Positions 405 through 37,197 of a stretch of DNA of 37,197 nucleotides are shown here, one piece after another. The DNA is from a virus. Below the pieces are notes generated by a model, which saw only the letters and a list, made by a program, of their open reading frames with translations, was not told where the DNA came from and made no database searches. Numbering within the stretch: position 1 is the stretch's first letter; each line of letters opens with the position of its first letter. The DNA is taken from positions 1 to 37,197 of IMG/VR virus record IMGVR_UViG_3300017971_000521. One strand, 5' to 3'. A program made the translations under genes and the position numbers.

Positions 405-926
405 ATGGAAAATAAACCTAAAAAAAGAAAAATACGTGTTAAAAAAAGAGTTATTTTAACTGAAGAAGTAAAAGAGTTCATTTTAGAGAAAATGCATGAG
501 GGTATGGATATATCAAATATATCTAAAAAATATCCAGACAAAGTTCCTACAGCAGATAATATTTATAAGGCTTCGCTTAAAGATAAAGACTTTGAGAATA
601 GAGTTAATGATGCTTATTCAGTATTACTTATGCGTAGGTTAGATGAACTTAACGATCTCATGGATGAGAATTGGTGTAAAGATCGATTAGGACAATTTGA
701 TGGTGATTATAAACTTGCATTTGAAGCTAGAAGAGCAAAATTAGATGTACTTAAATTTATATTAGGAAAGATGTCTCCTATTTTATCTAGAAGATTTCAA
801 AAACAAGAAAGATTAGAAGTAACCGGATTAGAAGGTGCAGCATCAATATCAATAATAAATTATTATGCTGATAAAGAACCAGTAAATATTATTGAATCTA
901 AAAAACAGGAATTAGAAGAGCATTAA
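405..926 (+). CDS. terS: Terminase small subunit (Sf6 gp1-like)
   Basis: This 173-aa protein probably recognises phage DNA and loads the large terminase for packaging. The N-terminus is very basic (residues 2-15). A helix-turn-helix-like segment follows at about 18-60 (LTEEVKEFILEKM, then GMDISNISKKYP). The C-terminal half has the Sf6-like pattern of a helical stretch, then RRAKLDVLKFILGKMSP, then RRFQKQERLEVTG. Length fits the family. No clear ribosome site precedes the ATG. The gene stands alone, 6.6 kb from the large terminase and next to the DnaA-box cluster, which is unusual because the two subunits are normally adjacent. Family assignment rests on pattern recognition. Confidence 0.75.
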   Translation: MENKPKKRKIRVKKRVILTEEVKEFILEKMHEGMDISNISKKYPDKVPTADNIYKASLKDKDFENRVNDAYSVLLMRRLDELNDLMDENWCKDRLGQFDGDYKLAFEARRAKLDVLKFILGKMSPILSRRFQKQERLEVTGLEGAASISIINYYADKEPVNIIESKKQELEEH

Positions 927-1067: not shown

Positions 1068-1136
1068 TTATCCACAATTTCTTTTGATAAGAATGTGGAT
1101 AACTCTGTGGATAAACATACCTATCCCTGTGGATAA
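1068..1136. other. Candidate replication origin: four perfect DnaA boxes
   Basis: Four exact copies of the high-affinity DnaA box TTATCCACA lie within 69 bases. One is on the plus strand at 1068-1076 and three are on the minus strand at 1094-1102, 1106-1114 and 1128-1136 (read as TGTGGATAA). A strongly AT-rich stretch follows (about 1140-1215), as expected of an unwinding element. The cluster sits in the 380-base non-coding gap between convergent genes. Four exact 9-mers this close are very unlikely by chance. A DnaA-dependent origin is the simplest reading; a DnaA-titrating site is the alternative. From 1216 to 1306 I see only an imperfect TCGTT-N6-AACGA dyad (about 1233-1248) and a weak AT-rich hairpin near 1285-1310. 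Confidence 0.7.
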
Positions 1137-1306: not shown

Positions 1307-1510
1307 TTACTTTATTCCAAATGGTTTGCTTAAAAAGTTTTCTGCTTCTTTTATTTTTTCTAAACATTTATTATAGCTAAGAGAGTTTTTTTGTTTACTA
1401 ATTATTAACTTAGAATATCTTCTTAATTTCTTTTCATAGAATTTTTTCTTTTTATTATAATAATCTATTTCTTTTTTAATGATGTCTTTACATTCTTCTA
1501 ATAGATTCAT
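1307..1510 (-). CDS. Hypothetical lysine-rich coiled protein
   Basis: A 67-aa protein very rich in lysine, glutamate and tyrosine, predicted to be almost wholly helical (for example KKEIDYYNKKKKFYEKKLRR). The start ATG overlaps the stop of the preceding gene by one base (TAATG), so it is probably translationally coupled as the last gene of the leftward set. I do not recognise a family. A DNA- or RNA-binding role is only suggested by the positive charge. Confidence 0.6.
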   Translation of the reverse strand: MNLLEECKDIIKKEIDYYNKKKKFYEKKLRRYSKLIISKQKNSLSYNKCLEKIKEAENFLSKPFGIK

Positions 1511-1725
1511 TACTCTATTCCCAAAGTATTCAAGCTATCGCATAAATCATGATAAAGGTCATCGATAACTCCTTCCCAATCTGCGTTATCTGATTTTCCA
1601 TATTTCCATAGAGATCTAAGTCGTTGCTGATGAGATTCTAAAGCGCAATAAATGTTTCTGGCATTAACAGCTAGTTTGATATCTACATTATTATCTGATT
1701 CAATAGTATATGTTTCCTTACACAT
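1510..1725 (-). CDS. Hypothetical acidic small protein
   Basis: A 71-aa protein with a helical core carrying the pattern LRSLWKYGKSDN, then VIDDLYHDLCDSL. This resembles small conserved phage proteins of unknown role, but I cannot name a family. The ribosome site is weak. It is coupled by a one-base overlap to the gene at 1307-1510 and lies 14 bases after the membrane-protein gene, so all three are probably in one leftward transcript. Confidence 0.6.
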   Translation of the reverse strand: MCKETYTIESDNNVDIKLAVNARNIYCALESHQQRLRSLWKYGKSDNADWEGVIDDLYHDLCDSLNTLGIE

Positions 1726-1739
1726 AAGAATATTATAGA

Positions 1740-2585
1740 TTAGATTTTATACTTAGTTAAATATTCATCGAGGCGTAAAAGTTCTTTAACAATAAGGCCC
1801 TCATGTCTGGTTAAAGTTTGGTTCTTGCCTAGATCTCTTAGCTTCATATAACTATCTAATCCATATAAGATAGGTTGAGAAGATACCATCAGAATATCCG
1901 GCATCTCTATGCTGACTTGTTCCTCATAAGATGGGGGAAGTTCTTCAGATTCTTCCCCTAGTGCTTGCTTTAATTTTGCCCTTCTACTTTCTAATGTTTG
2001 CTTTCTATCTTTTATTACTTTACGTAGCCCATCGTGGTCTGCTATAGCTCCGAAGTCCCCCCATAATAAGCGGTCTAAAATGCGTCTTACATAGTCTGGT
2101 GTGATGCCTGTAATCTTAGGAGGATTGCGATATAGCATTACTAGTTCGTTAAATCTCTCTCTCATTTCAACGCTATCTATAGCTAGATCATCTGCTGTTT
2201 CGAGACATTGCTTAGAGGTTAAACGATAGTTCCAATCTCCAAATATACCCTTACAGATAGCCATAGTTGACCATTCTGTAATAGCTGCTGTCGAATAACT
2301 GAATAGCCAGCCACTAAAAAACACCTTTGATGTAGCGTTAGTGAAAGAGCCTGTAAGGCCCAAGGAGGACATTAAATTTACAACCCACCCTCCATATCCA
2401 GTTGATATAAAAGGCATCGCTATGCCTAAAATAAGGGCTGCTGAGGTCATTATTATGTGGATGACATGCTCTGGGATTTTTCTTCCTCTGGATATTTGCT
2501 TAATATCATCTGCTATTTGGTATAGAGGATTAACTATGAATTTTAATGCTGTTGATTTAGATATTGTTTTTAGAATGTCGCTCAT
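1740..2585 (-). CDS. Membrane protein of unknown function with a PPSY motif
   Basis: I place the start at ATG 2585 (MSDILKTISK), giving 281 aa. That leaves a 19-base gap to the previous gene and puts GAGA just upstream; the frame is open to an ATG at 2636, but that start would overlap the previous gene. A hydrophobic region follows an amphipathic start: residues about 40-62 (VIHIIMTSAALILGIAMPFI) and about 65-115 (glycine/serine-rich, weaker hydrophobic stretches). The C-terminal half is charged and helical and includes LPPSYEEQ (PPSY at about 217-220). The DNA looks less AT-rich than neighbouring genes, possibly a sign of separate origin. I do not recognise the family. The PPxY motif could be chance. 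Confidence 0.6.
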   Translation of the reverse strand: MSDILKTISKSTALKFIVNPLYQIADDIKQISRGRKIPEHVIHIIMTSAALILGIAMPFISTGYGGWVVNLMSSLGLTGSFTNATSKVFFSGWLFSYSTAAITEWSTMAICKGIFGDWNYRLTSKQCLETADDLAIDSVEMRERFNELVMLYRNPPKITGITPDYVRRILDRLLWGDFGAIADHDGLRKVIKDRKQTLESRRAKLKQALGEESEELPPSYEEQVSIEMPDILMVSSQPILYGLDSYMKLRDLGKNQTLTRHEGLIVKELLRLDEYLTKYKI

Positions 2586-2604
2586 TGTTATTCTCAGTTT
2601 CTTA

Positions 2605-2898
2605 TTATTTATTATTTTTAATTCTGATTGTATCAATATAATTCAATAAATCTTCAAATTCTTCAGCGAATTCATGAGTAACTGTATCACTTATTTTATT
2701 TAATCTTTTAATTAAATCCTCATATTTTGGAGACCTATATATACATTCTTTTTGAGTATAATTATAAGCATTTAATATCGCTCCATTTAAATAATGAAAT
2801 AGCTTTGATTCAAGAGTAGATAAATTCATTGTTACTTTATCTAAGAAATCTTCAAAATCTGTTTCAGGAAGTATTCCTTTATCGAAATTAGTTTTCAT
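2605..2898 (-). CDS. Hypothetical helical protein
   Basis: A 97-aa, mostly helical, mildly acidic protein with no recognisable domain. An AAGAG stretch upstream of the ATG can serve as a weak ribosome site. It lies 3 bases after the 94-aa gene and 19 bases before the membrane-protein gene, so it belongs to the same leftward operon. Part of the sequence (IYRSPKYEDLIKRLNKIS) loosely resembles part of the 73-aa gene at 3183-3404 (IRYQPTLEKLLSIKQLS), which may mark distant relatedness. Confidence 0.6.
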   Translation of the reverse strand: MKTNFDKGILPETDFEDFLDKVTMNLSTLESKLFHYLNGAILNAYNYTQKECIYRSPKYEDLIKRLNKISDTVTHEFAEEFEDLLNYIDTIRIKNNK

Positions 2899-2901
2899 GT
2901 T

Positions 2902-3186
2902 TTAGCTCTTAATTATTTTTTTATTTAGTTCGTTACTTATTTTTATACAAGAATGTTTAACTACTTCTGAGGTTAAGTTTCCAGCAAGTATATCATAAGC
3001 CATAAATATTCTATCATTATGTTCTAGGCTTCCTAATAATATAGCAACATCTCTTCCGCTTTCTTTGTTATACGATATATTATAAAGAAGCTGGGTTTCT
3101 TTGGAAGTATCAAACACCCATTTAATTCTGTTGTCTATATTATTTGCTATTTTTAACACAAAATCCTCTTGTTCTTGCTCTGTCAT
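2902..3186 (-). CDS. Hypothetical helical protein
   Basis: A 94-aa protein, helical, with no motif I recognise. Its ATG overlaps the stop of the upstream 73-aa gene in an ATGA arrangement (3183-3186), which indicates translational coupling. It is part of the accessory leftward set, whose other members are also about 70-100 aa, helical and of unknown role. Confidence 0.6.
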   Translation of the reverse strand: MTEQEQEDFVLKIANNIDNRIKWVFDTSKETQLLYNISYNKESGRDVAILLGSLEHNDRIFMAYDILAGNLTSEVVKHSCIKISNELNKKIIKS

Positions 3187-3404
3187 TTATTATCCTTAGA
3201 TTCCCAGTTTAAATCTAAATCATCGCTTCCGCTTGATTTTATTTTTACTAATAAGTCAGTGCTTAATTGTTTTATAGAAAGTAATTTTTCTAGTGTTGGT
3301 TGATATCTTATGGAGTTATAATCATCTTCTTGAGAGATTAGATTACGACATTCCTGAATAGATTTATCTAATAAGCTTAAAAGTGCTGTTTCTAATTCTT
3401 CCAT
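3183..3404 (-). CDS. Cassette gene A: small acidic protein with shared C-terminal tail
   Basis: A 73-aa helical protein with a good ribosome site (TTAGGAGATATAA before the ATG). The last part, KSSGSDDLDLNWESK, is almost identical to the tail of the gene at 3542-3847, although the rest differs. At DNA level the tail region is 44/46 identical (3199-3244 against 3558-3603), and the upstream regions are also near-identical (3443-3506 against 3874-3937). The gene therefore looks like one of two cassettes whose flanks are conserved and whose core has been replaced. Function unknown; the acidic tail could be a targeting or interaction signal. Confidence 0.65.
   Translation of the reverse strand: MEELETALLSLLDKSIQECRNLISQEDDYNSIRYQPTLEKLLSIKQLSTDLLVKIKSSGSDDLDLNWESKDNK
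3199..3244. repeat. Conserved 3'-end repeat, copy A
   Basis: This 46-bp stretch matches 3558-3603 at 44 of 46 positions. It encodes, on the minus strand and in the same reading frame in both genes, the tail SSGSDDLDLN. It forms the downstream boundary of a duplicated cassette. Confidence 0.85.
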
Positions 3405-3442
3405 TTATATCTCCTAATGTGCGGTTAAGATAATATAATATT

Positions 3443-3506
3443 ATAGTTAAACAACAAAGTAAATATTTTAATATGTTAACATAAATGTAATTATAATGGA
3501 TTCTAT
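3443..3506. repeat. Duplicated upstream region, copy A, with palindromic operator
   Basis: This 64-bp stretch matches 3874-3937 at about 60 of 64 positions. Each copy lies upstream of one leftward cassette gene and contains the perfect 12-bp palindrome TATGTTAACATA (here 3472-3483), a likely operator. On the minus strand the copy ends in AACTATAAT-like sequence, consistent with a promoter for the gene at 3183-3404. Confidence 0.8.
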
Positions 3507-3541
3507 GTATGTAAAAATATATAGATTGCATTTATGTACTT

Positions 3542-3847
3542 TTATTTAGCTTCTTCAGATTCCCGGTTTAAATCTAAATCATCGCTTCCGCTTGATCTTA
3601 TTTCGGGGCAAGCTTCAGCTATAAGTCTCCAACCAATAGCTGTTCTTATTAGTTCTTTAGGACTTCTTTCCTGAAGTAAATGCTTATATTTAATTAGATT
3701 TTCTGGGATTATTTTAGGATATTTACAGTTATTTTGAATCCCTAATATAGTAGATACGATACTCATATCTTTACTAATTAAATAATTACATTCTTCAAGG
3801 TAATCTAGAACTATAGATTCATATTCATCTGATATTGAGTATTTCAT
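3542..3847 (-). CDS. Cassette gene B: small protein with shared C-terminal tail
   Basis: A 101-aa helical protein with ribosome site AAAAGGATACAAT before ATG. The core (YLEECNYLISKDMSIVSTIL, then NLIKYKHLLQERSPKELIR, then IGWR) resembles the 102-aa protein at 34659-34967 (YMLKCEKLLYDDIQILSPLL, then VLNKYRKIISSRDKKDLIK, then IGWW), so the two are probable paralogues. The tail RSSGSDDLDLNRES is instead shared with the neighbour at 3183-3404. The gene therefore looks chimeric: a core from one family joined to a recurring tail. Function unknown. Confidence 0.65.
   Translation of the reverse strand: MKYSISDEYESIVLDYLEECNYLISKDMSIVSTILGIQNNCKYPKIIPENLIKYKHLLQERSPKELIRTAIGWRLIAEACPEIRSSGSDDLDLNRESEEAK
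3558..3603. repeat. Conserved 3'-end repeat, copy B
   Basis: Partner of 3199-3244 (44/46 identical). It lies at the 3' end of the 101-aa gene and encodes the same acidic tail. The offset between the 3'-end copies is 359 bp while that of the upstream copies is 431 bp, showing that the two cassette cores differ in length. Confidence 0.85.
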
Positions 3848-3873
3848 ATTGTATCCTTTTAATAAAGAATGCC

Positions 3874-3937
3874 ATAGTTAATTAACAAAGTAAATACTTT
3901 AATATGTTAACATAAATGTAATTATGATGGATTCTAT
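3874..3937. repeat. Duplicated upstream region, copy B, with palindromic operator
   Basis: Partner of 3443-3506, carrying the same palindrome TATGTTAACATA at 3903-3914. It lies 26 bases upstream of the 101-aa gene, on the side where its leftward promoter should be. It also marks the left edge of the 562-base spacer (3848-4409). Confidence 0.8.
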
Positions 3938-3999
3938 TAACAAATTATTTGTTACTTTAAGATTTTAGAAAGTTATGTTTATATTAAGATTATATTATT

Positions 4000-4040
4000 T
4001 TGATCGATTCTTTTAGCAAAAGTATAATGTGTATATACAC
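4000..4040 (+). promoter_or_regulatory. Strong sigma-70-type promoter with palindromic operator
   Basis: TTGATC (4000-4005), a 17-base spacer and TATAAT (4023-4028) form a near-consensus rightward promoter. The next base starts a perfect 12-bp palindrome, GTGTATATACAC (4029-4040), where transcription would begin, so a bound repressor should block it. The core TGTATATACA recurs in front of the outer-membrane protein gene (32566-32579) and, with one mismatch, at 4348-4357. The promoter would drive an RNA of more than 370 bases before the first gene at 4410. Confidence 0.6.
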
Positions 4041-4076
4041 GCGAAACTACACAATATATAGTGTAAGGTCGTTATA

Positions 4077-4090
4077 ACTTTCCGGAAAGT
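4077..4090. promoter_or_regulatory. 14-bp perfect palindrome (operator candidate)
   Basis: ACTTTCCGGAAAGT reads the same on both strands. GAAAGTT half-site-like words recur nearby at about 3968, 4102 and 4179. It lies about 40-50 bases downstream of the predicted start of the 4000 promoter, so it could be a roadblock operator or a site for another nearby promoter. The spacer also holds a tight CCCC-T-GGGG palindrome (4195-4203) and a short GC-rich stretch near 4207-4240, for which I see no clear role. Confidence 0.5.
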
Positions 4091-4259
4091 GTACCTTATT
4101 GAGAAAGTTTATTTCGGCAGATACGTTAAATCAATAACTTAGATGGTGCTAGCGATTTATACCAATCATTATTTATAGGAAAGTTTAATTTGACCCCTGG
4201 GGTATTTTGGAGGGTAGGGCGCGGGTTTTGTGCGCGTGTCATTATTTATCATACTCCAT

Positions 4260-4307
4260 CTACAAAAATCTAAAATTCAAGGTTTAAATATATACAGTTA
4301 AATAACT
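4260..4307 (+). repeat. 48-bp leader repeat, copy 1 (no gene behind it)
   Basis: This copy differs from copy 3 (4705-4752) at only 2 of 48 positions. Copies 2 and 3 each sit directly before a small membrane-protein gene. Copy 1 is followed only by about 50 bases of AT-rich DNA with the dyad TTAAGT-GTAT-ACTTAA (4328-4343) and then by copy 2. It may be the leftover of a lost cassette. Confidence 0.8.
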
Positions 4308-4360
4308 ATATAGATTATTATCTATATTTAAGTGTATACTTAAGACATGTATATACTTTT

Positions 4361-4398
4361 CTGAAATTCGAGGTTTAAATATATACAGTTAAATAACT
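4361..4398 (+). repeat. Leader repeat, copy 2 (shortened)
   Basis: About 38 bp matching the second half of copies 1 and 3 and ending AGTTAAATAACT. With the next base it forms CAGTTA-AA-TAACTG (4386-4399), arms of 6 bp around two A. This dyad abuts the GGGG ribosome-site region of the gene at 4410, so it could bind a regulator or act as an RNA hairpin. Confidence 0.75.
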
Positions 4399-4409
4399 GG
4401 GGTATAATA

Positions 4410-4700
4410 GTGACACACTTGTTCGGCTTACTTTTTGTTGCGATAGGGTTATTAGGTTCTGTTGTGCTTATAATAAAACGTATAAATTTGCTTGAACGTT
4501 TAATCTGCAAATATATGGACATAACAGAGGATAAATTAAATAAGGTTTTTGAAATTAGGCCCACATTATATGAAACAGAACATCTGAGGAGAGAATTAAA
4601 AAGTATTAATTTTAAGATTAATATGCTTGAAGGGATGATAAACGATAAAACTTCAGTAGATGACGGGAAAGGTTCATCTTCTTTAATGGATTGGGATTAA
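4410..4700 (+). CDS. Cassette membrane protein 1
   Basis: A 96-aa protein starting with GTG behind CTGGGGTATAATA. Residues about 4-23 form one membrane helix (FGLLFVAIGLLGSVVLIIK). The rest is charged and helical (about 30-75), with an acidic, serine-rich end. The first residues and their DNA match the gene at 4765 (both H-x-FGLLFV-x-x-G), while the 3' parts differ. A holin-like or exclusion-type inner-membrane role is possible but unproven. It is probably expressed from the promoter at 4000. Confidence 0.65.
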   Translation: MTHLFGLLFVAIGLLGSVVLIIKRINLLERLICKYMDITEDKLNKVFEIRPTLYETEHLRRELKSINFKINMLEGMINDKTSVDDGKGSSSLMDWD

Positions 4701-4704
4701 TCAA

Positions 4705-4752
4705 CTACAAAAATCTAAAATTCACAGTTTAAATATATACAGTTAAATAACT
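4705..4752 (+). repeat. 48-bp leader repeat, copy 3
   Basis: 46/48 identical to copy 1, and placed 4 bases after the stop of the gene at 4410-4700. It ends in AGTTAAATAACT and continues into GGGGGGAT, the ribosome site of the next gene. The complete copy includes the CAGTTA-AA-TAACTG dyad. Confidence 0.85.
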
Positions 4753-4764
4753 GGGGGGATAATA

Positions 4765-4947
4765 ATGATACACTCGTTCGGTTTACTTTTTGTTTCAGTG
4801 GGGTTCGCCCTTGCTATTATGTTCATAACAAAACGCATGAATTTAATTGAATGCTTACTTTATAAACATATCGAAGCATTAGAGATCATAGAAAAAATAA
4901 TATATGAAGAGTATAAAGATAATTCCAACAAAGATGCCCGGCAATAA
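4765..4947 (+). CDS. Cassette membrane protein 2
   Basis: A 60-aa protein with a strong G-rich ribosome site (CTGGGGGGATAATA before ATG). One membrane helix lies at about residues 4-23 (FGLLFVSVGFALAIMFITK), followed by a short acidic helical tail. It is a paralogue of the gene at 4410 in its first 35 residues and diverges after that. Being preceded by its own leader copy, it looks like a stand-alone cassette. Confidence 0.65.
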   Translation: MIHSFGLLFVSVGFALAIMFITKRMNLIECLLYKHIEALEIIEKIIYEEYKDNSNKDARQ

Positions 4948-4956
4948 AATTAAAAA

Positions 4957-5733
4957 TTATTTAATAATAATCTCCTGAATGAATACTTCATCACCCTGAA
5001 AGGGTAAATATTTAGAGTTTGTTGAAAGGTCAGCAGGAGTAAATTCATTAGATGGTTGAGCATAACTTCCTACTCCTATTTCTCTAAATACTGTAACCAC
5101 AAGTTCGCTACAGAAAATAGAACTTAAATCCTCTTTATTATCTGAAAAGTAACTAACTATTTTATTTAATATAGGGATACTATACCACCATTTAGGGGCA
5201 TCTATAGCGGATTTGAATAGTTCACTAAGATTTCTTTCATAAGATACTCCTATATAACGTTGAACAGTTTGTTCTAATTTTAATAATTGTTTTTTGGTTA
5301 GAGGTCTAGTTAATCTTCTTAAGGCAACAGTTCCATCATAAGTATTTAATATATCTTCAAGAAAGATGGTTCTTACTTTACCAGATAGGGAATAACCCAC
5401 GCCAGACTTTAATAGAGAGCTTGTAGCTTCGAACAGGCATAGTTGCCCATTCCATTCAACAATCATCCCCACGTGCGTCCATTTGCTTCCTGTGAAGGTT
5501 TTAATTATTCTGCCGTACCAATCTGAGTTTGAGAATAATAATATATCCCCTGGTTTTAAATTTAAATCATGTAAAGATTGTTGGGTAAATGTCATTTTGA
5601 TAACTCTCTGTTGTGATTGTAATAAAAAAAGGAATGAATATGTATTTGGCTTAACACCCAATCCTATAGCTTCAAAACATATACTAAATATTAATAGAGT
5701 CAATTTTAGTTTAGTTAGATAGCTTTTAGGCAT
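4957..5733 (-). CDS. Papain-fold cysteine hydrolase (YiiX/C92-like)
   Basis: The frame encodes up to 258 aa. The core has the permuted NlpC/P60 pattern: LKPGDILLF (60-67), WTHVGMIVEW with H87, FEATSS with E102, and FCSELVV with C208, matching the Cys-His pair of YiiX/C92 hydrolases. Such enzymes cleave amide or ester bonds in cell-wall peptides or lipids. The first 46 residues are hydrophobic and could be a signal or anchor, but no ribosome site precedes the ATG at 5733. The ATG at 5595 (MTFTQQ) has AGAGAG upstream and is an equally likely start. It is the only gene that the leftward promoter near 6100 could drive. A cargo gene or an extra lysis enzyme are both possible. Confidence 0.7.
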   Translation of the reverse strand: MPKSYLTKLKLTLLIFSICFEAIGLGVKPNTYSFLFLLQSQQRVIKMTFTQQSLHDLNLKPGDILLFSNSDWYGRIIKTFTGSKWTHVGMIVEWNGQLCLFEATSSLLKSGVGYSLSGKVRTIFLEDILNTYDGTVALRRLTRPLTKKQLLKLEQTVQRYIGVSYERNLSELFKSAIDAPKWWYSIPILNKIVSYFSDNKEDLSSIFCSELVVTVFREIGVGSYAQPSNEFTPADLSTNSKYLPFQGDEVFIQEIIIK

Positions 5734-6752: not shown

Positions 6753-7556
6753 ATGAGCAGAATAATTATATCACAAGCAAAAACGATAGCAGAACTATCT
6801 AAACTAGCAGCATTAGAAGAAGCAGGAGACGATATATTATATGTATCGAAATTTGGAAAATCAGGAATATTAACAGCAAATGTTCAAGAATCAGTATGGA
6901 GCGTAGGAGGAGATAGAACATTATTATTTACCTCTCAAACAATATCAATCGTATCAACAAGTGGAGAAGATGATTCAACAGGTACTGGAGCACAAGTAAT
7001 TCTCATACAAGGATTAGATGGTAATTACGATATTCTACAAGAAACAATAATAATGGATGGAACAACCCCAGTATTAACAACTAATAAATTTTTAAGAATA
7101 GAAAGAATGGTAGTACTAGCTGCAGGATCTAATCATTCTAATGTAGGAACTATAACTGCAACAGAAACTGGGGGATCTACAATTCAAGCAAGAATAGAGA
7201 TTGGTAGATCACAAACCCAAATGGCAATGATTACAATACCTAGAGGATATACAGGTTTAACAACTATGTCTTTAATTTCCTGTCATAGATCATCTGGAAC
7301 AGGAGTTAAAAGAGGTGAGTTAGAAGTTGTTGCTACAACGAGTACTCAAGTTGAGATTAGATTACAAACATTTGGAATGGTTAATGACGGAACTAGTACA
7401 TTCTTTGGTGAATATAATCTACCATTTGTAACACCAGAAAAAACAGAAGCACATTATTCTTTTACTGCTGAATCATCTGGAACCTATTGTTCTGTTGTTT
7501 TTAATATTCTTTTTGTGAAAGGAAATTGGAATACTAACGATAATACTTTATTTTAA
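6753..7556 (+). CDS. Putative virion structural protein
   Basis: A 267-aa protein rich in serine, threonine and glycine with alternating beta-type segments (for example GGDRTLLFTSQTISIV, then VILIQGLDGNYDI), ending in a hydrophobic beta stretch. Similar proteins are carried near terminase genes in many environmental tailed phages, usually annotated as structural. It overlaps the large terminase start by one base (TAATG) and so is coupled to packaging genes. The exact role (head decoration or tail) cannot be told. Confidence 0.5.
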   Translation: MSRIIISQAKTIAELSKLAALEEAGDDILYVSKFGKSGILTANVQESVWSVGGDRTLLFTSQTISIVSTSGEDDSTGTGAQVILIQGLDGNYDILQETIIMDGTTPVLTTNKFLRIERMVVLAAGSNHSNVGTITATETGGSTIQARIEIGRSQTQMAMITIPRGYTGLTTMSLISCHRSSGTGVKRGELEVVATTSTQVEIRLQTFGMVNDGTSTFFGEYNLPFVTPEKTEAHYSFTAESSGTYCSVVFNILFVKGNWNTNDNTLF

Positions 7557-8923
7557 TGTCTAATCAATCAATAAACATTCCCTATAATTTTATACCCAGA
7601 AATTATCAACTAGAACTTTTTAGAGCATTAGATGGACAACAGGGAAAACCAGAAACTAGAAAAAGAAGAGCAATTCTTCGCTGGCACAGAAGAGCTGGAA
7701 AAGATAAGTGTTGTTGGTGTTATTTATTGAAAGAAGCCGCTCAAGTTACAGGAAATTATTTTTATATATTCCCAACTAAAACCATGAGCAGACAAGCATT
7801 ATGGGAAAACATAGATAAAGATGGATTTAAATTATTAAATCATTTACCAAAAGAATTTATTACAAGATTAAGTAATCAAGAAATGTTAATAGAACTTGTT
7901 AACAAGTCTACTATTAGAGTATTGGGATATGATAAAGATCCAGATTCTATTAGAGGGGTAGCATGTAAAGGAGCTGTATTTTCAGAGGTAGCATTTTCCG
8001 ATCCAGAATCTTATAAAACAATGATGCCTGCATTAAGAGAATCTAAAGGATGGGCAATATTTAATTCTACACCTAACGGAAGAAATCATTTTTATGATCT
8101 CTGGCAAAATGCTTATAACTCAGAAAATTGGTTTGCTAGTTTGTTACAAACATGCTGGCCTAATAAACCAGGATATAGTGGAATATTATCCCCAGAAGAA
8201 ATAGCTTCAATACAAAATGAAGAGGGATTAACACAAGATGAAATAGAGAGAGAATTTGGAGTAAGCTTTTCTTCTGGAACTCAAGGGGCTTATTATATGA
8301 ATTCTATAGAATCAGCTTATAATTCTGGAAGAATTTCTGATTTTGTTTATGATGATACTTTAAAGGTAGATACATTTTGGGATTTGGGGATAGATGATTC
8401 AACCGCAGTTTGGTTTAGACAGCGTAAAGGAAATAAATTAATTTTCATTGATTATTATGAAGAATCGGGAAAAGACCTCCAGCATTTTGTTAGGATGCTC
8501 GAATCAAAAGGATATAATTATGAAACTCATTATTTACCTCATGATGCAGGACATCGTTCTATTCAAACTGGAGGTTCAACAGCAGATTTATTAGAAGATT
8601 TATTAAGAGCTACCGATATATCAGATGATATAGTTCTTTTAAACAAACTTCCAGTACAAAGTGGAATAAATGCAGTAAGAGCAAGATTCAGCAGATATTG
8701 TTTTGATATAAACAAATGTGCTGAGGGATTAAAGAAATTAGAACTTTATCATAAGAGATGGGATAAAAGGAGATCTGTTTTTTTAAAAGAACCAATGCAC
8801 GACAGCAACTCTCATGCAGCTGATGCCCTAAGAATGGAAGCAATTTCTGAAGACCTGCGAAATGACGAATTTTATACTATAAATAATATAAAAGTTGAGA
8901 TGAATTATGACATATTTGCATGA
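7556..8923 (+). CDS. terL: Terminase large subunit
   Basis: A 455-aa packaging motor with both domains visible. The ATPase has a Walker A-type loop WHRRAGKD (43-50), a Walker B region GAVFSEVAF (139-147, glutamate E144) and the coupling motif FNSTPNG (169-175). The RNase H-like nuclease has FWDLGIDD (274-281), LPHDAG (327-332) and the final DSNSHAADALR (416-426). Length is normal for the T7/P22-like groups. It cuts concatemers and pumps DNA through the portal encoded at 10220. The small subunit is unusually far away, at 405. Confidence 0.93.
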   Translation: MSNQSINIPYNFIPRNYQLELFRALDGQQGKPETRKRRAILRWHRRAGKDKCCWCYLLKEAAQVTGNYFYIFPTKTMSRQALWENIDKDGFKLLNHLPKEFITRLSNQEMLIELVNKSTIRVLGYDKDPDSIRGVACKGAVFSEVAFSDPESYKTMMPALRESKGWAIFNSTPNGRNHFYDLWQNAYNSENWFASLLQTCWPNKPGYSGILSPEEIASIQNEEGLTQDEIEREFGVSFSSGTQGAYYMNSIESAYNSGRISDFVYDDTLKVDTFWDLGIDDSTAVWFRQRKGNKLIFIDYYEESGKDLQHFVRMLESKGYNYETHYLPHDAGHRSIQTGGSTADLLEDLLRATDISDDIVLLNKLPVQSGINAVRARFSRYCFDINKCAEGLKKLELYHKRWDKRRSVFLKEPMHDSNSHAADALRMEAISEDLRNDEFYTINNIKVEMNYDIFA

Positions 8924-14726: not shown

Positions 14727-14768
14727 CCCGCCACGCCTCTTAATAATGCGAACCAAGGCGGGGTTTTT
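14727..14768 (+). terminator. Rho-independent terminator
   Basis: CCCGCC (14727-14732) pairs with GGCGGG (14757-14762). An inner CGC/GCG pair can form, and after one more G there is a run of five T (14764-14768). This is the clearest terminator in the rightward direction and lies between the decoration-like gene and the head-fibre gene. Some read-through must occur, because no new promoter is evident downstream. Confidence 0.75.
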
Positions 14769-30193: not shown

Positions 30194-30784
30194 TTAATCT
30201 TTCCAAAAATCTTTAAATCTAGTTGAAGATATTTCCGTATAACGTACAGTATGTTGAATATTTCTATGTCCTAAATAATATTGAATGCTACGAGTATCTT
30301 GCCCATCATTTGCTAATTTAAATCCAGTTGAATGTCTTAACATATGAGGATGAACTGATATATCAAGTTCTGCTTGCTTACCAGCTCGCGCTACAATTTT
30401 TCTAAATGTTGAATCTGTTATTGGAGTTTGACGCTCGGTCATAAAAACATATTCACTATCAGGATATTTACGCTTTACTGCACGTAGAGCTCTTAAATCA
30501 GGCCCGAAAAGAGGATGAGTACTAGCTACTCCATTCTTAATACGTGTAACATGTAATAATCCTTGTTGTAAATCTATCTGTGACCACTTTAATGCTATTA
30601 ATTCTGATACTCTAAGCCCATGACGATATGCAATTAAAATCATAGCGGCATCACGTTGTCCATATCTACCATTTTGTTTTGCAGCAGCAATTAATTTATC
30701 AACTTCCTTAGGAGTTAAATATTCTCGAGTACGATACTCTTTATTTTTAACTCTTTTAGGTTTTATATTATTTTTTAGCATCAT
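30194..30784 (-). CDS. Tyrosine recombinase, FimB/FimE type
   Basis: I place the start at ATG 30784 (a second ATG follows at 30781), because AAGGCGG lies just upstream; the frame extends to a GTG at 30802 with a poorly placed ribosome site. The 196-aa protein consists of the catalytic domain only, as in FimB and FimE (about 200 aa). In numbering from 30802 the catalytic residues are R64 (HGLRVSEL), H153 and R156 (HPHMLRHSTG), H179 (LGHRNIQHT) and Y188 (VRYTE). It could integrate the phage or invert a DNA segment. Codon use is less AT-rich than in neighbouring genes, suggesting separate acquisition. Confidence 0.9.
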   Translation of the reverse strand: MMLKNNIKPKRVKNKEYRTREYLTPKEVDKLIAAAKQNGRYGQRDAAMILIAYRHGLRVSELIALKWSQIDLQQGLLHVTRIKNGVASTHPLFGPDLRALRAVKRKYPDSEYVFMTERQTPITDSTFRKIVARAGKQAELDISVHPHMLRHSTGFKLANDGQDTRSIQYYLGHRNIQHTVRYTEISSTRFKDFWKD

Positions 30785-31010
30785 TACCGCCTTTATGTTC
30801 ACTTCCTGTATAAGTTAACAATAATATTACCCAGAAGATTAAACCTACTACAGGGGCATTAGCACTACTAGCACCACATACAATGAATAAAGTTATGAGT
30901 ATCCACTTCCCTACTTCACCACAACCAGAGTTCATCTCCTGCTGGTTTTGTTTAGCGTCATCACTATCATCCTGAATACCCATTATCTCGTTGTAGTCTC
31001 TCTTACTCAT
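30768..31010 (-). CDS. Small membrane protein (holin candidate)
   Basis: An 80-aa protein with ribosome site GGAGGTG. The N-terminus is hydrophilic and acidic (about 1-30), followed by two hydrophobic segments at about 34-51 (GKWILITLFIVCGASSANA) and 53-68 (VVGLIFWVILLLTY), and a short charged tail. Its position in the operon that ends with the endolysin makes it a holin candidate. The end overlaps the recombinase start region by up to 17 bases. No family recognised. Confidence 0.6.
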   Translation of the reverse strand: MSKRDYNEIMGIQDDSDDAKQNQQEMNSGCGEVGKWILITLFIVCGASSANAPVVGLIFWVILLLTYTGSEHKGGNDAKK

Positions 31011-33658: not shown

Positions 33659-33922
33659 TCAAGTAGTTTTATTTAATATTTGGTCTTTAATATGTCCTAA
33701 TGAAATTCCTAATTGGAATAAAGAGTTACAATTAAATTTAATTTTAATTGTACATACATGTGAATTAACAGTAGGAATACTAATATTTAATTTATTAGAA
33801 ATGTCTTTAAATTTCATTCCTTTAGCTAAATAAGATATTATTATTAATTCTTTCTCTGTTAAATAATTATCTATTCCATTAACAGTAATATATGTTCTAA
33901 ATTTATTTGCTTTATTACTCAT
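33659..33922 (-). CDS. LuxR-type (GerE) DNA-binding protein
   Basis: An 87-aa protein that is essentially one GerE helix-turn-helix: LTEKELIIISYLAKGMKFKD then ISNKLNISIPTVNSHVCTIK, with the recognition helix at about 49-62. There is no receiver or signal-binding domain, so it is either constitutively active or depends on a partner. It lies 13 bases after the TetR gene. It could be the regulator that binds the GAC(A/G)AACGGT or other dyads, but this is only inference. Confidence 0.8.
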   Translation of the reverse strand: MSNKANKFRTYITVNGIDNYLTEKELIIISYLAKGMKFKDISNKLNISIPTVNSHVCTIKIKFNCNSLFQLGISLGHIKDQILNKTT

Positions 33923-33935
33923 TCGTTTAAATGTA

Positions 33936-34646
33936 TTATTTGCTCCATCCAGAAGTAATAGGCTTATTATCAGGAAAATTAGTTATGTTTGATTCTGTTT
34001 GATTTATTTTTAAATCTAAAGCATTTATTAAAAAATCAATATAAATAAATATAGTTTTATCTGAATTAGTTTTAATAGTACTGTTTAAGAGTAAAACGCA
34101 AGAACCTATAAGCATATTTAAAAACTTTTCTGTTTTATCTTTATAAGATTTTTCTCCTAATTCATGAAATTCTTTATTACACCAACCTATTATTAATTCC
34201 ATGATAGGATTAAAATCATTATATAAAAAATTATTCTGTTTTTTTTCTATATCTAAAAGCAATGAAGAAACAAATCTACCTAAACTTTGTGGTTCATCTG
34301 CATAACTTTTTATTCTTATATCAGTTTTATAAAAATCTTTTATTTCTTTAGTTAATTCTTCTCTGGGAAGACCTAAAAATAATTTAATAAAAGATTGTAA
34401 TCTAAGTTTATTATTTTTACTTTCTGTTTCTATTTTAATTAAATCTAATTTTAATTTAGAAAATCTTATTTTTAATACATCTTGTATCATTGATTCTTTA
34501 GTTTTAAAATAATAATAAACATTTCCTAAAGGAACTTCTGCAAGATATGCTATATCAGATAAAGACATACCGTTAATTCCTCTTTCCGCTAATAATATAT
34601 CAGTTGCTGTTAATAATCTTTCTCTTTTATTATTTCTATTCGACAC
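33936..34646 (-). CDS. TetR-family transcription regulator
   Basis: I choose GTG 34646 because AGGAG lies about 5 bases upstream; the frame opens at another GTG (34652) that is too close. The 236-aa protein has the TetR N-terminal DNA-binding domain: LLTATDILLAERG, then GMSLSDIAYLAEVPLGNVYY and YFKTKESM (about 26-53). The C-terminal ligand/dimer domain is helical and unassigned. TetR proteins usually bind palindromes as dimers and release on ligand binding. One in a phage regulator position is unusual and makes it a candidate for the TGTATATACA or TATGTTAACATA palindromes. Confidence 0.88.
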   Translation of the reverse strand: MSNRNNKRERLLTATDILLAERGINGMSLSDIAYLAEVPLGNVYYYFKTKESMIQDVLKIRFSKLKLDLIKIETESKNNKLRLQSFIKLFLGLPREELTKEIKDFYKTDIRIKSYADEPQSLGRFVSSLLLDIEKKQNNFLYNDFNPIMELIIGWCNKEFHELGEKSYKDKTEKFLNMLIGSCVLLLNSTIKTNSDKTIFIYIDFLINALDLKINQTESNITNFPDNKPITSGWSK

Positions 34647-34658
34647 GAACACTCCTGC

Positions 34659-35369: not shown

Positions 35370-36386
35370 TTATCTCGATTTAATAACATTAGAATGAGGT
35401 TCAATCCAATATATTTTACTCCATTCTGTTTTACTTTTATCCCAACAATTATTAAATCCAGCTTCACATGCAAACCTAGATTCAGGAAATATTGATTGCA
35501 TAGACCTAAGCATTATAGATGCTTTCTCTTCTATTAAATCATACATTTGAGGACATTCTTTAACTTCACTTAGTATTTCATCATGAATCATAGCTTGAGG
35601 AATAAGTAAATCAGTATCACCAAATCTTTCCATTACTTTTATAGTAGCTTTCTTAGCCCCTATAGCAGATCCAGATTGCATTAATATACCATTGCAGAAT
35701 TGAGTATATGTACACCAATCTCTTTTAAATCCTTCTATTTCAAAAGAATACATTGGCTCAGTTTTCCATTCCCCAAACTCATTTTTAATTTGCTTTGTTT
35801 TTCCTGTTAAAAAATCTTTATGACCTTCATTTAAAAAATATTTTAAATCAGGATATAAAGAAAACATTTCATCTTTTAATGCAACTAGCTCATCATATAC
35901 TAATTCAAATAAATTCTTTGCTACTTGTCGAATTCTAACGGGATATCCTTTTTTCTTTAGAATCATCATTTTACCTTGCAAATATTCTTCTTTCTTTGCT
36001 TTAGATAAAACTTTTAATTTAGGAAATATCTCATATCGAGATAATACTATTCTCATAGTGTCGTATCCTATGCCCCCAGGAAAACCGAGATTTATAGGTT
36101 TAGCTAATTGTCTATATTGTTTATAAAGATTTTCTTTTTTATGTTGAACAAAAGATTCATATGTTTCATTAACCCCTTCTTTCATATTCATAAATCTATA
36201 TGCCAGCATGCTATGAGGGTCTATAGGCTCATATCCTTGATTTAAGATATCAAGCATATTTCTTTTGCCTGTTATTTTATATAATTGATAAGCAGTACAA
36301 GCTAATTCTAATCCGGAATAATCTATAGTACATATCTTATAACCTGGTCTTGGAATAAAACAATTTCTTATATCCCAAGTAATCAT
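35370..36386 (-). CDS. DNA polymerase A family, polymerase (palm/fingers) part
   Basis: A 338-aa protein holding the catalytic half of a family A DNA polymerase. Motif A is CTIDYSGLELA with D22. Motif B is RQLAKPINLGFPGGIGYDT (R92, K96) in the GFPGG form known from phage polymerases. Motif C is MIHDEILSE with H268, D269 and E270. It begins MITWDIRNCFIPRPGYK, where the continuous protein would run on from the QQMPR segment of the upstream gene. Its ATG overlaps the upstream stop (ATGA), in a different frame. It is therefore a split polymerase, a frameshifted gene or an assembly error. Confidence 0.88.
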   Translation of the reverse strand: MITWDIRNCFIPRPGYKICTIDYSGLELACTAYQLYKITGKRNMLDILNQGYEPIDPHSMLAYRFMNMKEGVNETYESFVQHKKENLYKQYRQLAKPINLGFPGGIGYDTMRIVLSRYEIFPKLKVLSKAKKEEYLQGKMMILKKKGYPVRIRQVAKNLFELVYDELVALKDEMFSLYPDLKYFLNEGHKDFLTGKTKQIKNEFGEWKTEPMYSFEIEGFKRDWCTYTQFCNGILMQSGSAIGAKKATIKVMERFGDTDLLIPQAMIHDEILSEVKECPQMYDLIEEKASIMLRSMQSIFPESRFACEAGFNNCWDKSKTEWSKIYWIEPHSNVIKSR

Positions 36387-37197
36387 ATAATCTCTCTAAT
36401 TTCTCTAGGCATTTGTTGGATATTTACAGAAGCAAAATTATCAGATGTAAAACTAGAAGTTCTTCCTGATGACACAACAGCATTATATTGTGTACGTATG
36501 TAAGGAGTAGCTTTTTTTAATCGAGAAGTAAATGCTGTTAAAACTTTCTCTACACTCATGATATTTAAAAAAGAATTAAGGAGTGAATATAAATAATCAT
36601 TTTTTGATATTAATGTTAAATAATGGTTTAAATCCTCATTAGAAGTCGATATAGAGCCTTTTGCAGTATATCTTATATTAGGTAGTTTCTTTTTTAATAA
36701 AGCCTTAAAGGCTTTCATATTGCGTTTTAATCCTTTTTTATCTTGGATTAATATTTCATGTTTTTGAAGTATTTCTTTATGAACTGATATTTGATTTTTT
36801 AGTTCCTCTTCTATTGTGGATACTCTGGTCTGTTCTATAAGTATTCCGGTAGAACCCATTCTATTTAAATAATAATCTGCTGAAACTGATAAACTTATAT
36901 CTATATCGGCCTCTAAAAGTTGGTTCTTATAAATATCATAAGCATATATTGAATCATATTTAGCATAGTTTATCGCTTCTTTTGGCCAATCACATAGAGG
37001 TACATTTTCTAATTCATGATATCTTAAACGCCAAGCATTAGGATTTTTTTTATCTTCCGAAATATCTATATTAAAATATTTAAGCACTAATGCTGCTAAA
37101 TTAAAAATACCTATAGGATGTTTTCTTACACAATCTAACAATTGTTCATATATTTTGGTACATATAATTTTTTTATTATTTAATTTTTTATATAAAA
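36383..37197 (-). CDS. DNA polymerase A family, exonuclease and thumb part (runs off right edge)
   Basis: The frame is open to the window edge, so the N-terminus is missing; at least 270 residues are visible. The 3'-5' exonuclease ends with the DEDDy motif III YAKYDS, following FNLAALVLKYFNID. The thumb region follows, then VVSSGRTSS and NIQQMPR, the conserved segment that leads into the palm. The frame stops right after PREIREII, before motif A, and the catalytic part continues as a separate gene overlapping by 4 bases. The exonuclease motif I, if present, lies beyond the edge. Confidence 0.85.
   Translation of the reverse strand, partial: LYKKLNNKKIICTKIYEQLLDCVRKHPIGIFNLAALVLKYFNIDISEDKKNPNAWRLRYHELENVPLCDWPKEAINYAKYDSIYAYDIYKNQLLEADIDISLSVSADYYLNRMGSTGILIEQTRVSTIEEELKNQISVHKEILQKHEILIQDKKGLKRNMKAFKALLKKKLPNIRYTAKGSISTSNEDLNHYLTLISKNDYLYSLLNSFLNIMSVEKVLTAFTSRLKKATPYIRTQYNAVVSSGRTSSFTSDNFASVNIQQMPREIREII

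Follow-up and report, generated by a model that had tools for sequence, protein, structure and literature searches.

A cluster of four exact DnaA boxes beside the small terminase gene of an environmental phage and its possible role in DnaA-assisted replication

To our knowledge, reliance on the host initiator DnaA has been described for few phages. Iteron plasmids, including F, RK2, pSC101, and the phage-plasmid P1, carry DnaA boxes at their origins, and in RK2, which has four such boxes, the orientation of the boxes matters (PMC4980987). The E. coli loci datA and DARS consist of DnaA boxes clustered in a set orientation (PMC5835720). The window analyzed here, a virus record of the IMG/VR type that spans 37,197 bases and has no end repeats, resembles the iteron plasmid and phage-plasmid origins (RK2 oriV, P1, F, and pSC101) in having several boxes beside AT-rich DNA, but differs from them in having no iterons beside the boxes and no Rep in the contig. 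The high-affinity 9-mer of the cluster is common to E. coli oriC; the MG1655 oriC region has two exact boxes, directed outward and separated by 180 bp, compared to four within 69 bp in the window, which is also without the neighbor genes of oriC. The window shares with datA and DARS the occurrence of a short DnaA-box cluster outside of oriC, though these loci also use misfit boxes together with IHF and Fis. Other clusters in IMG/VR phages consist of the same 9-mer and are found on the 5' side of the terminase large subunit gene (terL), often abutting the terminase small subunit gene (terS), in other terminase lineages.

In the window, the cluster falls in a gap downstream of terS and is composed of the following features:

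405-926, plus strand: terminase small subunit gene terS (PHROG 1482, E = 1.6e-8; Pfam Sf6_terminase, 25.2 bits, just below the cut-off of 27 bits)
927-1306, 380 bp, no strand: non-coding gap holding the cluster, between convergent genes (ORF list)
1068-1076, plus strand: DnaA box 1, TTATCCACA, exact match
1094-1102, minus strand: DnaA box 2, exact match
1106-1114, minus strand: DnaA box 3, 12 bp from box 2, exact match
1128-1136, minus strand: DnaA box 4, exact match
1068-1102, no strand: extended inverted repeat (hairpin) of boxes 1 and 2 plus TTCTT/AAGAA (DNA fold z -3.99)
1140-1220, no strand: AT-rich stretch beside the boxes, candidate unwinding element (composition, 78-82% AT)

An exact-match scan of the window confirmed the four copies of TTATCCACA claimed in an earlier note on this DNA, all inside the 69 bp at 1068-1136 (one plus, then three minus), and recovered no others. 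The box spacing is 26-12-22, and box 1 is directed inward, facing boxes 2-4. The chance expectation for such a cluster is ~1e-11 (analytic). Dinucleotide-shuffled versions of the window held a mean of 0.48 copies and never reached four, order-3 Markov simulations (n = 400) placed a maximum of one box in any 69-bp stretch, and TTATCCACA is the sole 9-mer that reaches three or more occurrences within 69 bp in the window. One-mismatch boxes across the window are near the chance number (18, including the 4 exact, versus 11.8 expected).

The cluster begins 142 bp past the end of terS, and the right-hand neighbor of the gap is a 67-aa ORF on the minus strand (1307-1510), such that the gap is downstream of both genes. 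Because it separates convergent gene ends, a promoter role of the boxes for the two neighbors is unlikely. The ORF list and base composition agree with the earlier description of a non-coding gap with AT-rich DNA after the boxes: 1140-1220 is 78-82% AT against ~69% AT for the whole contig, with no defined 13-mers or trios seen in that stretch. An iteron array was found neither in nor near the gap, and searches for DNA similarity between the window start and phages, and between the gap and plasmids, returned nothing useful. Host oriC contamination of the window was rejected, as the gap adjoins a phage terS. Upstream of terS, at 320-380, there is a stem-loop (CTTGCTGGGA...TCCCAGCAGGATTTTTT) that is terminator-like by eye.

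The virion genes of the contig are of the podovirus type (head-tail adaptor, tail protein, and internal virion protein), and are accompanied by genes for a RusA resolvase and a YqaJ exonuclease. Three further genes bear on the discussion below:

7556-8923, plus strand: terminase large subunit gene terL (PHROG 2, E = 2.9e-29)
30194-30802, minus strand: tyrosine recombinase of ~200 aa (Pfam PF00589; plasmid-borne recombinases are up to 60% identical)
35370-37197, minus strand: family A DNA polymerase in two overlapping ORFs, running off the contig end

The last of these confirms that the window encodes a DNA polymerase, and the tyrosine recombinase is possibly a dimer resolvase or an integrase. 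In bacterial genomes, the relatives of terL reach ~40% identity at best and show a scattered distribution, many of them being alphaproteobacterial. Several side observations were made on the remaining contig. The polymerase ORFs overlap by ATGA in both the window and its relative G003 (L147:18381-19472 and the next ORF), and G001 has a single 696-aa ORF. Between terS and terL, 1307-5733 is mostly a minus-strand block, with other genes in its place in G003, and the sole database match among its scanned ORFs was a YiiX-type C92 permuted papain-like protein (4957-5595). An abiF RNA match (Rfam, 40.3 bits, cut-off 37) occurs at 14727-14763, between two virion genes and followed by a T-run; it was not found in the loci of eight relatives and is possibly just a terminator hairpin. 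TetR-type and LuxR/GerE-type regulators are encoded at 33936-34652 and 33659-33922, and a TetR-type gene is also present in G003.

G003 is the best near-complete relative (39,748 bases), with a terL 68% identical to that of the window and a genome that is circularly permuted relative to it. The ~6 kb between its polymerase gene and terS encode a holin, a Gp2.5-like SSB, a ParA (PHROG 164, E = 4.8e-51), and a 409-aa wHTH-like protein; the window is without the corresponding ~6 kb. The contig stops inside the polymerase gene, and neither Rep nor ParA is seen in the contig itself. For the 409-aa protein, neither a Pfam family nor a counterpart in the phage collection was found, and its homologues belong to Bdellovibrio, Piscirickettsia, Legionella, and Cardinium plasmids. 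In the three plasmid records covered (Bdellovibrio, Piscirickettsia, and Cardinium), the gene is located directly after a ParA or AAA-ATPase gene, and 11-bp tandem repeats occur inside the coding sequence in G003, Bdellovibrio, and Piscirickettsia. Members of this family with in-gene 11-bp repeats are located at L147:14125-15354 (G003), L321:2300-3577, and L322:7431-8771. The 409-aa protein looks like a putative plasmid Rep whose iterons lie within its own gene, and G003, with virion genes in addition to predicted partition and replication genes, looks like a phage-plasmid. Because G003 encodes ParA together with this putative Rep, whose iterons are 11 bp long, the family of the window would contain phage-plasmids. 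The earlier label of T7-like fits the virion genes only loosely, and the ParA and plasmid-type Rep-like gene of G003 point to a phage-plasmid. G003 shares a ParA and a Rep-like gene with the iteron plasmid origins, but has no DnaA boxes and carries its repeats inside the Rep-like gene; DnaA boxes were rejected as a general trait of the ParA-Rep plasmid family, none being present in the three plasmid stretches covered.

The favored reading, to which we give about an even chance, is that the cluster is a binding site for host DnaA that serves as, or assists, the replication origin of an extrachromosomal phage genome. Binding by host DnaA is the natural and simplest reading because the four boxes match the consensus exactly, and an origin assisted by DnaA is favored because P1, F, RK2, and pSC101 use such arrays along with their own Rep. 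Replication of the plasmid type is plausible in the family because of the ParA and the repeat-bearing Rep-like gene in G003. Host DnaA would bind the four boxes, and the bound DnaA would bend and strain the adjoining AT-rich DNA to the point of unwinding and would help to load the host DnaB helicase. A probable partner would be a Rep, of phage or plasmid type, encoded in the segment missing from the contig.

Several observations count against an origin. There are no iterons near the boxes and no Rep or ParA seen in the contig, and the replication genes of the family sit across terS from the cluster. Cumulative GC skew tracks gene strand and reaches a local maximum near 1 kb, where an origin would be expected to give a minimum, so the origin-type turn anticipated at 1.1 kb is absent, and skew aligned on the clusters of five other lineages had no consistent turn, though the test is weak for small phage genomes with strand-biased genes. 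Nor are the boxes kept in close relatives. The exact cluster is absent from 33 records of terL relatives, including the near-complete G003, and a cluster of three boxes allowing one mismatch is absent from the available DNA of 14 of the closest relatives; in G003, the position after terS is occupied by plus-strand ORFs. Because the nearest relatives lack the boxes, the family can replicate without them, and the cluster was rejected as a core origin of the family. Judged by these comparisons, it is a lineage-specific gain within the family of the window, or has been lost elsewhere. The original proposal, that replication starts here with host DnaA or that the phage titrates DnaA, is thereby upheld as far as consensus boxes suit host DnaA, and is weakened by the missing skew turn and the absence of boxes in relatives. 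The hybrid initiation mode raised alongside it would be conceivable, and the location beside terS, which recurs in other phages, was not part of that proposal.

The setting of similar clusters in other environmental phages offers a second line of comparison. Pattern scans of IMG/VR recovered at least 120 stretches with convergent triplets, at least 120 with tandem triplets, and 24 with a tighter convergent pattern, and together they give at least 246 other viral loci in which three or more exact copies fit into 250 bp. Among the matches listed, clusters hold 3-13 copies within 250 bp; five loci (L065, L119, L124, L061, and L039), with 9-13 exact boxes, are far denser than the window. Terminase genes are the commonest neighbors of the clusters in the first 120 loci listed. 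Contamination by host oriC was rejected here as well, with dnaA, dnaN, rpmH, rnpA, yidC, mnmE, mnmG, and rsmG near none of 120 listed loci (phmmer). Where TerL could be found with TerL models, 116 of 119 loci among the matches listed have the cluster 5' of terL, and this 116:3 sidedness suggests a recurrence of DnaA-box clusters next to the terminase genes of many unrelated environmental phages. Grouped at 40% identity, 22 of 25 TerL lineages among the matches listed have the cluster upstream (one-sided binomial, ~8e-5 at equal odds and ~1e-3 allowing for longer upstream flanks), with the caveat that the lineages are large and uneven and that half of the loci are without a TerL found. The tandem set alone, found by a separate pattern, favors the 5' side by 53 to 2 among the matches listed. 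It should be noted that genes close to clusters served as seeds for the TerL and terS models, which biases nearness and leaves side unbiased.

The position relative to terS differs by lineage. In one large lineage, the cluster lies between terS and terL and overlaps or follows the terS stop, at -60 to +68 bp relative to it, and in a second terS family it mostly precedes the terS start, within ~160 bp upstream. The window has the arrangement of the lineage with the cluster at the terS stop (+142 bp), but with a very divergent terS of its own; the Pfam family matched by the terS of that lineage is also the weak best match of the window terS. Its 26-12-22 box spacing has no identical case among the loci listed, and the usual distance between cluster and terL elsewhere is 0.3-1.4 kb, compared to 6.4 kb in the window (among the matches listed). 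The terL regions of eight GenBank phage isolates had no exact box. Non-coding DNA itself is concentrated upstream of terL, with 44% of it within 2.5 kb compared to 88% of the clusters, so the terminase-side position may partly reflect the boundary between replication and packaging modules, where non-coding space exists. In one large phage lineage, ~1.4 kb separate the cluster from a primase/helicase gene, an arrangement consistent with an origin at this boundary.

A plain origin does not predict the terminase-side position of the clusters in other phages. This position would best be explained by a packaging role, in which the boxes lie in or flank a pac/cos region beside terS and bound DnaA would have an architectural or gating function for the terminase or would couple replication to the start of packaging. 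The sidedness by locus and by TerL lineage speaks for such a role, as do the clusters that abut terS in two lineages, one sharing its Pfam family with the window terS. Conversely, the enrichment of non-coding DNA upstream of terL could account for part of the signal, nearness to the terminase is biased by model seeding, terL is 6.4 kb away in the window, and the relatives package without boxes. A packaging-linked element is a possible but unlikely reading of this locus. It is rather doubtful that host DnaA contributes to the onset of packaging across many tailed phages, or sets its timing, with the window as one independent acquisition; that clusters beside terS would couple replication initiation to terminase loading is a similarly tentative proposal.

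Alternatively, the cluster may titrate or regulate DnaA as a decoy like datA or DARS, with the many phage copies soaking up DnaA or altering its nucleotide state and disturbing host initiation. Multicopy DnaA boxes do titrate DnaA and raise the initiation mass in E. coli (PMC5835720). A decoy would be free in its position, yet the clusters of other phages show a strong preference for the 5' side of terL, and we consider this reading improbable.

Two further readings are unlikely, and we regard each as very improbable. The stem of boxes 1 and 2 (TTATCCACA-AT-TTCTT...AAGAA-TGTGGATAA) could act as an initiation hairpin of the ABC-primosome type that loads DnaB on single-stranded DNA, as the fold score and the extension past the boxes might suggest, but pairing is a given for any inverted boxes, the 5-bp stem added outside the boxes has p = 0.036, and the extended hairpin is not enriched among 154 convergent spacers of other phages. 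Repeats beside terS could also be terminase or repressor sites that match the DnaA box by coincidence, with DnaA not involved, but all four copies equal the 9-mer consensus of host DnaA, and clusters of this 9-mer recur across many unrelated phages.

The DnaA-assisted origin therefore remains the favored reading of the cluster, at the strength given above. DnaA boxes are a known kind of element, and no description of their recurrent terminase-side position was found in the open literature searched, the coverage of which was incomplete. If the recurrence is true, either many phages would use DnaA-assisted origins at the boundary between replication and packaging, or DnaA would have an unrecognized role related to packaging.
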